Shown: positions 60,194 through 64,000 of the stretch, one piece after another
Position numbering within the stretch: the stretch's first letter is position 1
How the letters are laid out: each line of letters opens with the position of its first letter
Assembly: GCF_001638985.1 (NCBI RefSeq)
Contig: NW_017265139.1
Span: forward strand, 2,232,001-2,296,000
Length of the DNA stretch: 64,000 nt
From: Phycomyces blakesleeanus NRRL 1555(-)
Taxonomy: Eukaryota > Mucoromycota > Mucoromycetes > Mucorales > Phycomycetaceae
Direction: 5' to 3'
Notes under the pieces: generated by a model
The model's input: only the letters and a program-made list of their open reading frames with translations
Told to the model about the DNA's origin: nothing
Database searches by the model: none
Program-made: the position numbers and the translations under genes

Positions 60194-61304
60194 ATGTCTG
60201 TTCTCGAACAAATCAAGCAGTTCACCACCATCGTTGCCGACTCTGGTGACTTTGAGAGTAAGTACAGTGCCAAAGACGACAAGTGTAGCGATACTCCTTT
60301 ATTCAGTTTGACTCAACAAACGCGTCCTTACTTCAAATAGCCATTGCTGTCTACAAGCCCCAGGATGCTACCACCAACCCCTCTTTGATTCTTGCTGCTG
60401 CCCAGAAGCCCCAGTACGCTTCCTTGATTGAGGATGCTATCGCCTACGCCAAGGGCAAGGGAGGGTAAGCTTTAGAATACCTACATCTTTAAATGAAAGG
60501 GCTGGGAAACTAAATAACTTTATTAGTTCTGATGAGGAGCAGCTTGAGGCCGCTACTGACAAGTTGTTGGTCAACTTCGGTAAGGAGATCTTGAAGATTG
60601 TTCCCGGTCGTGTCTCCACCGAAGTCGATGCTCGCCTGTCTTTCGACAAGGATGCCACTGTTGCCAAGGCCCTTACTCTCATTGCTTTGTACGAGGCCGA
60701 GGGTGTCAACAAGGACCGTATCTTGATCAAGATTGCCTCTACCTACGAGGGTATCCAGGCCGCCCACATCCTCGAGACCCAGCACAGCATCCACTGTAAC
60801 CTGACCTTGTTGTTCGGTTTCGCCCAGGCCGTAGCATGCGCAGAGGCTGGTGTTACCCTCATTTCTCCCTTTGTCGGACGTATTCTTGACTGGTACAAGA
60901 AGTCTACCGGTCAGACCTACGAGAGCCACGAAGATCCCGGTGTCCTTTCGGTCTCCAAGATCTACAACTACTACAAGCAGCACGGCTACAACACCATTGT
61001 CATGGGTGCCTCTTTCCGTAACACCGGCGAGATCGAGCAGTTGGCTGGTTGCGACTACCTCACCATCTCTCCTTCCCTTTTGGCTGAGATGCAGAAGGAC
61101 ACCAAGACTCTTGTCCGCAAGTTGTCCCCCGAGACTGCCAACGCTGTCTCCATCGAAAAGGTCTCTTACTTCCACAACGAGAAGGCCTTCCGTTGGGATA
61201 TGAACGAGGATGCCATGGCTACCGAGAAGTTGTCTGAGGGTATCCGCAACTTCGCCAAGGATGGTGTTAAGCTTGAGAACATGCTCAAGGAAAAGCTCCT
61301 CTAA
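60194..61304 (+). CDS. TAL1: Transaldolase
   Basis: Three exons (60194-60257, 60341-60464, 60527-61304) give 321 aa. It moves a dihydroxyacetone unit between sugar phosphates in the non-oxidative pentose phosphate pathway in the cytosol. The family signature [14 protein letters not shown] and the Schiff-base lysine region [16 protein letters not shown] are intact, as are [30 protein letters not shown] and [18 protein letters not shown]. Codons strongly favour C in the third position, unlike the AT-rich flanks, which indicates high expression. This bias also creates a long meaningless open frame on the opposite strand. Confidence 0.98.
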
Positions 61305-62259: not shown

Positions 62260-64000
62260 ATGGGCGTGAAACCACAGACAATTGCGCTTGCTACTGCAGG
62301 TGTGGCAGCTACAGCAGGTCTTGGCTACTTGATTTACTTTGATTACAAGAGACGTAACGACCCCAGTCTTAAGAAGAAACTGAGTAAATATTTACCGTCC
62401 CATAACAGAACAATAGCTTTCTTTTTACTTATTTATTTATTTATTTTTAAAAAAATATTTACTATTTAGGACGTGAGCGTAAAAAGGCTGCCAAGGAAAC
62501 CAAGAGCGCCGAAGAGGAAGCCAAGGCAAAGGCTATCAAGCTTATCGAAGACGTTATGGCTGCCGTAGACAAAGAAGTGTTCCCAGAGTCACCCGAAGAA
62601 AAGGAAAAATACTTTATGGCTCAGGTCGCAGCAGGTGAATCGCTCTGTAACCAAGGCGAGGCATTCTACAACGACAGTGTCCTGCCTTTTTACACTGCCC
62701 TCAAGGTCTACCCCGCTCCCCTCGAATTAATCATGATCTACCAAAAGACCATCCCAGAACCTGTCTTCCAAATCGTCGTCAGCATAATGGCTCTTGAAGT
62801 AAAGAAATAATCTTCTTTTTTTTTATAAATGCATAGGGTGTTTTTTTTTTAAAAAAAAGCAATGGTTTCTAATACCGATCTATTTAAATAGCAACAAAAG
62901 CGCCAGAACGGCTTCTACGAGCAGTTCCCTCCCAAGGAGACTCATGTAAAGATTGGTGAATTGCCTGCCGGTACCTCCCCCGAAGGAAAGCCCATCATTC
63001 GTCGTGGATTGGTTGCTGCTGAGGATATTGAGGAAGGACAGACATTGTACACCGAATCCCCAATGATCTCTGCCCTTCACCCAAGCCTCGAGGTAATTTT
63101 TTTTTACTAACACAAGTAGATTAGGCATAATTAAGAGAATGTGGGGAAAAGGAAAGAAAAAGAAATCACTTGTGCAAAAGCTTACTATAATTGTGTATGT
63201 AATTTATGTAGCGTACCTATTGCAACCACTGCTTGAAAAAGATTGATCCCGAACACCGTGTAGAGTGCACCAACTGTGACAGAGTTGCATTCTGCAGTGA
63301 AGAGTGTAAGACAGCTGCTACCGAGGGCTACCATCAATTCTTGTGCACCAACTCCAAGGTCCAAAATACAACCTCTGATGCCACCGCCGAACAGAAAGAT
63401 GAAGAACAATTAGAAACAGAGATTGCCGCTCTTGAAGAGGCTGCTGCCGAAGCAACAGCCGCCACAGCTGCCATTCCTGTGCTCTCCGAAAAGGAGAACG
63501 TGTTCCTCAAGTACGCACAGGAGAACAACGTTAAATACCCTCAGATGATTGCTCAATTCTTGTCCACCATGATTGCCGAAGAAAAGGAAAAGACAAAGGC
63601 TGGAAAGGCTGCCGAGTCAATGTACTCTGCCTGGGATCACATTGACAAGTACCGCTACTTGGATCTCTCTCCTTCAGAGGCCACCGTTACTGAGATGAAG
63701 ATGATCAAGGAATTGTTGGGCTCCAAGGTCCCAGGAATTGATGAGTTTTTGTCAGAGGAAATCTATCTGATGCTCAAGGGAAAGCTTGGTTACAATGCTT
63801 ATCCCATTCTTGCCACCGAGGGTGATGAGGTTGATGCAGAGGTAATTGAAACTCTTAAAGAAATAGCACATTATAATAGAAACTTGCTTGGAGTTGGAGT
63901 TGGGATGAAACCTATATACAAAAGAGAAAGGTCTAATGTGTATGTGTCTTTGATTTAAAAGGCTGCTTCCAAGGAACGTATTCGTGAACTTTCGGAAGAG
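62260..64000 (+). CDS. TOM20: TOM20 import receptor fused to SMYD-type MYND/SET domains (3' truncated)
   Basis: Exons 62260-62383, 62470-62798, 62892-63092, 63212-63841 and 63962 onward; the gene runs off the window after about 441 codons. Residues 6-25 are an N-terminal membrane anchor followed by RRNDPSLKKKL. The TOM20 receptor domain follows: AGESLCNQGEAFYNDSVLPF, ALKVYPAPLELIMIYQKTIP, PEPVFQIVVSIMALE and the TOM20 end motif FYEQFPPKETHVK. The same exon continues without a stop into SET-N (RRGLVAAEDIEEGQTLYTES), and the next carries a MYND zinc finger with all eight ligands (YCNHC, CTNC, CSEEC, HQFLC). The catalytic SET-C half would lie beyond the end. TOM20 normally ends after the receptor domain. 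Confidence 0.9.
62841..62858. repeat. T10A8 palindromic tract in intron
   Basis: Ten T bases followed directly by eight A bases lie in the second intron of the TOM20 fusion gene. Similar tracts occur at 39214, 40646, 55046 and 59958. Confidence 0.9.

Follow-up and report, generated by a model that had tools for sequence, protein, structure and literature searches.

TOM20 is a main presequence receptor of mitochondria, and knowledge of it in fungi comes mostly from Ascomycota. In Chaetomium, Tom20 is described as flexible, docking on Tom22 and using a TPR pocket at the cytoplasmic side to hold presequences (PMC12305020). A group of SET genes, Group 25, has been reported to carry a MAS20 domain upstream and to be absent from Ascomycota (PMC9692433, J Fungi 2022, section 3.4.3). 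Besides this account, our literature search, with subscription papers mostly outside its scope, found nothing on a TOM20-SET fusion. Here we describe such a gene in Phycomyces blakesleeanus and find that the architecture is real, conserved and little noticed. The product is probably an outer-membrane TOM20 receptor bearing a SMYD-type SET-MYND core, derived from an old, vertically inherited fusion and serving in Mucorales as a non-catalytic docking platform.

The window is a 64,000-nucleotide stretch of the P. blakesleeanus NRRL 1555(-) genome, whose assembly comprises 53.5 Mb in 60 contigs. The gene lies on the forward strand and its 3' end was read from the same contig (C6) beyond window position 64000, giving five exons at 62260-64180 in window numbering and a product of 500 aa. 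The four introns, at 62384-62469 (86 bases), 62799-62891 (93 bases), 63093-63211 (119 bases) and 63842-63961 (120 bases), are all GT-AG, and the exon coordinates first proposed proved exact. Exon 1 (62260-62383) contains the start codon and, as judged by sequence, Pfam and a helix predicted at residues 5-33 in the model of the fused protein, the membrane anchor at the N-terminus of TOM20 together with its basic stretch (aa 1-42). Exon 2 (62470-62798) encodes the helices of the cytosolic TOM20 part, with the TPR-like receptor domain. Here Pfam MAS20 matched aa 13-145 (62296-62780) at 150.5 bits against a cut-off of 27, and a test for the Tom20 fold was positive. Exon 3 (62892-63092), an open frame between an AG acceptor and a GT donor, encodes QQKRQNGFYEQFPPKETHVK...IIRRGLVAAEDI, comprising the end of the last TOM20-side helix (138-162), a fusion-specific linker FYEQFPPKETHVK, the first beta strands and the SET-N motif IIRRGLVAAEDI. 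Exon 4 (63212-63841) carries the MYND finger (aa 222-263, 63221-63346), a variable acidic, Ala-rich insert (aa 264-310) and the helical SET-I (aa 311-413). The complete eight-ligand finger anticipated in the exon after the junction is indeed there (C222, C225, C237, C240, C246, C250, H259 and C263), and Pfam zf-MYND matched aa 222-263 at 24.0 bits (cut-off 22.7). Pfam SET spanned aa 189-494 at 26.7 bits (cut-off 22.4), the SET domain being split by the MYND insertion as in SMYD proteins. SET-C and the stop are encoded by exon 5 (63962-64180, of which the window holds the part to 64000). Two SET-C motifs were to be looked for past position 64000: the terminal Tyr motif was found as GEELFAPY, containing Tyr494, while at the place of NHxCxPN stands the degenerate GQGADETTN. 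On inspection of the sequence, the NHxC active-site motif is absent from SET-C, with GQGAD at its place, and the protein lacks the cysteines of a post-SET CxCx2C zinc site, the chain stopping six residues past Tyr494. Directly downstream on the same strand is a gene resembling ribosomal protein uL2 (L009:3159-3920, window numbering 65159-65920), and upstream, also on the same strand, we judged by eye a transaldolase-like gene with two introns at 60194-61304.

The original prediction that TOM20 is here fused to a SET/MYND protein was confirmed at the sequence level by the in-frame splice, by a deposited P. blakesleeanus protein (P0001) that is 100% identical to the product over 500 aa, and by homologues, among them a full-length P. 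nitens protein with 87% identity. Its reading of the junction exon needs revision in one respect. The exon is open and contains SET-N as described, but FYEQFPPKE, taken for the last TOM20 motif, is a fusion linker: 184 of the 211 fused proteins contain the pattern, as against 2 of the 122 rows that are short or TOM20-only, each of the two a partial Coemansia protein. We therefore rejected FYEQFPPKE (FPPK) as a TOM20 motif; because the pattern is fusion-specific and the Pfam MAS20 match stops within exon 2, at aa 145, the junction exon encodes a fusion-specific linker and SET-N, not TOM20 proper. That TOM20 proper stops in exon 2 and the SET part starts in exon 3 is what an assembly or gene-model artefact uniting two adjacent genes would produce, and read-through into a neighbor seems to happen in this family, as Rhizopus P0049 has Pfam PF00181, the ribosomal family of the adjoining gene here. 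An artefact is nevertheless virtually certain to be the wrong explanation and was rejected, since the splice is in frame with GT-AG borders, a single predicted helix (138-162) bridges the exon 2/3 boundary, and the identical architecture recurs in many assemblies together with the linker pattern. P0049 (Rhizopus arrhizus, 521 aa) itself continues into sequence very similar to the uL2-like neighbor, so the gene neighborhood is probably conserved and the P0049 model probably spans two genes. Four other fused proteins, P0224, P0242, P0258 and P0279 (Leucogyrophana, Hygrophoropsis and two Suillus), also have Pfam PF04430, reflecting either a further fusion or gene-model read-through into a neighbor.

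A check for long TOM20 proteins in other fungi, advised at the outset, did reveal the fused architecture across many assemblies. Searching with the whole protein scored 7997 candidates, of which 106 matched at E<=0.001; searching with 22 diverse fused proteins yielded 315 matches, 120 of them listed. From both we kept 211 fused or partly fused proteins. These comprised 117 from Agaricomycotina, 53 from Mucorales, 22 from Zoopagomycota (4 Dimargaritales and 18 other Kickxellomycotina), 4 from Mortierellomycota, 3 from Glomeromycota, 2 from Endogonales/Bifiguratus, 2 from Blastocladiomycota, 1 from Calcarisporiella and 7 unnamed; in all counts genera were assigned to clades from general knowledge. 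Chytridiomycota, Tremellomycetes and Ustilaginomycotina were not seen among the matches listed. In several Mucorales, two or three fused proteins occur per species (P0014/P0045, P0021/P0049, P0004/P0031, P0010/P0053, P0029/P0039 and P0022/P0028/P0041), and the unequal decay of SET-C among these copies suggests further duplication.

Short forms were sought with a profile built from seven whole or partial TOM20 sequences, which gave 908 matches in the short size range, 120 of them listed. Those listed came from Mucorales, Ascomycota and Pucciniomycotina, with two partial Coemansia proteins, a Tulasnella fragment and unnamed proteins. Ascomycota among these 120 were short forms under 200 aa without the module. 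The expectation that TOM20 ends at 150-200 aa held for the listed short forms of Ascomycota and Mucorales and failed for Pucciniomycotina, whose rows range from 153 to 315 aa, and for the longer fused forms. Agaricomycotina contributed one short TOM20 to the 120, Tulasnella P0145; its TOM20 part is almost the same as that of the fused P0246, which suggests an incomplete gene model. Phycomyces itself also has a conventional 171-aa TOM20 on contig C8, identical to P0107 and sharing 62% identity with the fused protein over the TOM20 part (141 columns). At least 18 Mucorales species, by name, appear among both fused and short matches, so the two forms commonly exist side by side in this order.

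The catalytic sites of the added module, which had been suggested to act as a methyltransferase on incoming precursors, were counted across the 211 proteins, fragments included and the 122 short or TOM20-only rows (P0101-P0222, of 333) left out; the counts are of sequences, not independent events. Among the 53 Mucorales rows, HxC and the post-SET site are found in none, the terminal Tyr in 47 and an eight-ligand MYND finger in 51. His is kept and Cys lost in P0003, P0004 and P0059, Cys is kept in 0 of 53, and four rows (P0045, P0046, P0053 and P0056) have no SET-C. Outside Mucorales the sites are often retained: Agaricomycotina (n=117) have HxC in 116, Tyr in 83, the post-SET site in 115 and a complete MYND finger in 0; Dimargaritales (n=4) have all four features in all four proteins; and the other Kickxellomycotina (n=18) have HxC, post-SET and MYND in 16 each, with Tyr in 4. 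The corresponding counts of HxC, Tyr, post-SET and MYND are 4, 3, 3 and 4 in Mortierellomycota (n=4), 3, 3, 3 and 0 in Glomeromycota (n=3), 1, 2, 1 and 2 in Endogonales/Bifiguratus (n=2), 1, 2, 0 and 0 in Blastocladiomycota (n=2) and 3, 5, 3 and 4 in the unnamed proteins (n=7); the single Calcarisporiella protein has HxC, post-SET and MYND, with Phe for Tyr. A general either/or between MYND and the catalytic pair was considered and rejected: it holds for Mucorales versus Agaricomycotina and Glomeromycota and fails in Mortierellomycota and Dimargaritales, where HxC and MYND are kept together in 4/4 and 4/4, and in Blastocladiomycota, where 2/2 are without a complete MYND and without post-SET.

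These counts bear on whether the protein, anchored at the import gate, is an active lysine methyltransferase that modifies precursors, TOM subunits or ribosomal proteins. HxC, Tyr and the post-SET site occur together in 80 of 117 Agaricomycotina, 4 of 4 Dimargaritales, 3 of 3 Glomeromycota, 2 of 4 Mortierellomycota and 3 of 18 other Kickxellomycotina, and P0064, P0067 and P0068 combine NHxC, Tyr, post-SET and MYND, the only 3 of 211 to do so. Against an enzyme, the Asn of NHxC is present in just 12 of 117 Agaricomycotina, Phe replaces Tyr in 25 of these 117 and in 13 of 18 other Kickxellomycotina, and both HxC and post-SET are lost in the Phycomyces gene and likewise in all 53 Mucorales rows (four of them fragments). 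We consider an active enzyme an improbable explanation, and an intact SET methyltransferase is unsupported for the Phycomyces gene, in which the loss of the HxC pair and post-SET site argues against catalysis. Some SET proteins function with altered motifs; for this reason a dead SET domain in Phycomyces is something we infer. In other phyla, where complete SET motif sets are found in a minority, weak or full activity is possible to judge from the motifs. The fusion, its exons and the SMYD-like character of the module thus stand as predicted. A methyltransferase acting on incoming precursors is not supported for this gene, since it lacks the HxC pair and post-SET zinc site, as do the other Mucorales proteins examined. 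The zinc-dependent docking site offered as an alternative suits the Mucorales lineage better.

Loss of the active and post-SET sites would also be expected if the module were a passive leftover, tolerated at the TOM20 end and functionless in Phycomyces, with the receptor part alone mattering; short TOM20 copies manage without it, and a few Mucorales rows have no SET-C, though these may be gene-model fragments. Conservation argues otherwise. Among the Mucorales rows exceeding 425 aa (n=48), pairwise identity, our measure of constraint, averaged 0.57 for TOM20, 0.54 for SET-N, 0.52 for MYND, 0.56 for SET-I and 0.50 for SET-C, compared to 0.28 for the insert at 264-320 and 0.31 for the stretch 416-441. 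With SET and MYND conserved nearly as well as the receptor and all eight MYND ligands kept in nearly every Mucorales row, a functionless remnant appears unlikely, and the module, by this measure, is retained in Mucorales despite the loss of its active site.

A pseudo-enzyme platform on the import receptor is the better reading of the Phycomyces gene than an active methyltransferase. The cytosolic C-terminus of TOM20 would bear the SMYD-type SET-MYND core at the outer mitochondrial membrane and, since the module directly follows the receptor domain, would presumably place it in the cytosol beside arriving precursors. The Mucorales SET, having lost the HxC pair and post-SET zinc site, with the predicted fold preserved and the MYND finger intact, would form a non-catalytic platform adjoining the presequence-binding groove. 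The intact finger argues for docking in Phycomyces: the MYND finger, the former substrate cleft or both may dock a cytosolic partner beside the import pore, for example a precursor, a chaperone or a factor bound to the ribosome. Standard receptor work would be left to the short TOM20 that this genome also encodes.

To place the fusion in time, we compared a TOM20 tree (76 rows, 141 columns; a second version of 74 rows omitted P0145 and P0059, which has a very long branch) with a SET-part tree of 46 rows chosen from the 211 (331 columns). In both TOM20 trees, Ascomycota short forms lie beside Basidiomycota, Pucciniomycotina short forms adjoin Agaricomycotina fused forms, and the Mucorales short forms group with Mucorales fused forms. 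AU tests on the TOM20 tree rejected a single clade of fused rows (p 0.0012) and a single clade of short rows (p 9e-5), and with them an ancient split into fused and short paralogues. The root of this tree is unsure because the distant human outgroup attaches within Mucorales. The SET tree recovered Mucorales (100/100), Agaricomycotina (100/98), Mortierellomycota (100/100), Glomeromycota (99/97) and Dimargaritales (100/100) as clades. A single old fusion followed by several losses of the module is the simplest account of these sequences: most likely the fusion predates the split of the fungal phyla carrying it and was then inherited vertically, with the module lost in Ascomycota, in Pucciniomycotina and in the duplicate copy of Mucorales. 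If TOM20 had been joined to a SMYD gene repeatedly, and separately in different phyla, there would be no call for the several losses that a loss-only history needs, given that the listed Ascomycota and Pucciniomycotina are without the module, and the two trees partly disagree on deep branches. Blastocladiomycota pair with Kickxellomycotina in the TOM20 tree (90/96) versus Agaricomycotina in the SET tree (97/90), and Dimargaritales and Kickxellomycotina are united in the SET tree only. Repeated fusion is nonetheless very unlikely, as 22 diverse fused rows have a common linker and alignable SET parts, neither modelled protein continues beyond SET or post-SET into a SMYD C-terminal domain, and the SET parts form phylum-level clades.

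A bolder extension, which we regard as doubtful, is that the ancestral fungal TOM20 combined an import receptor with a SMYD methyltransferase of its own, which methylated precursors or translocase subunits at the pore. The trimmed Tom20 of Ascomycota, the basis of the fungal textbook model, would then be derived, the enzyme would be kept in Dimargaris, Mycoemilia and Spiromyces (also, with a degenerate MYND, in Pisolithus and Scleroderma), and Mucorales would have turned it into a pseudo-enzyme docking platform. The fusion occurs in several fungal phyla, and no fused protein among the matches listed came from the yeasts and moulds underlying the textbook picture. Should a TOM20 with a large SMYD-like module be in use in many other fungal phyla, an unexplored layer of import regulation would exist there. 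Since catalytic sites in this single protein family range from intact through half-lost to dead, a past coupling of methylation to mitochondrial import is directly testable.

Compared to known systems, the Phycomyces protein shares with fungal and animal TOM20 (Pfam PF02064, Chaetomium Tom20 9i7s) an N-terminal anchor, a YFDYKRR-type stretch, a TPR-like receptor domain and hydrophobic positions that can be aligned, but has ~340 additional C-terminal residues, unlike the listed Ascomycota rows, which are short (<200 aa). With SMYD proteins it shares the SET domain split by MYND, the eight-ligand finger and the terminal SET Tyr. It differs from SMYD1-3 in having no C-terminal helical (TPR-like) domain, the alignment ending near residue 256 of the 425-residue SMYD2 chain, no HxC and no post-SET zinc site, and in having a membrane receptor in front. 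A structure match to a Toxoplasma ring protein (9ya0) was set aside at an rmsd of 23.3. The SET proteins of the plastid RNA polymerase (8r6s chain L and others), which are not known to contain MYND or to act catalytically there, belong to a different complex. Group 25 (PMC9692433) has the same domain order, its description in the passages on this group offers neither a motif analysis nor a mitochondrial interpretation, and its reported absence from Ascomycota agrees with the short forms found in that phylum among our 120 listed of 908 matches.
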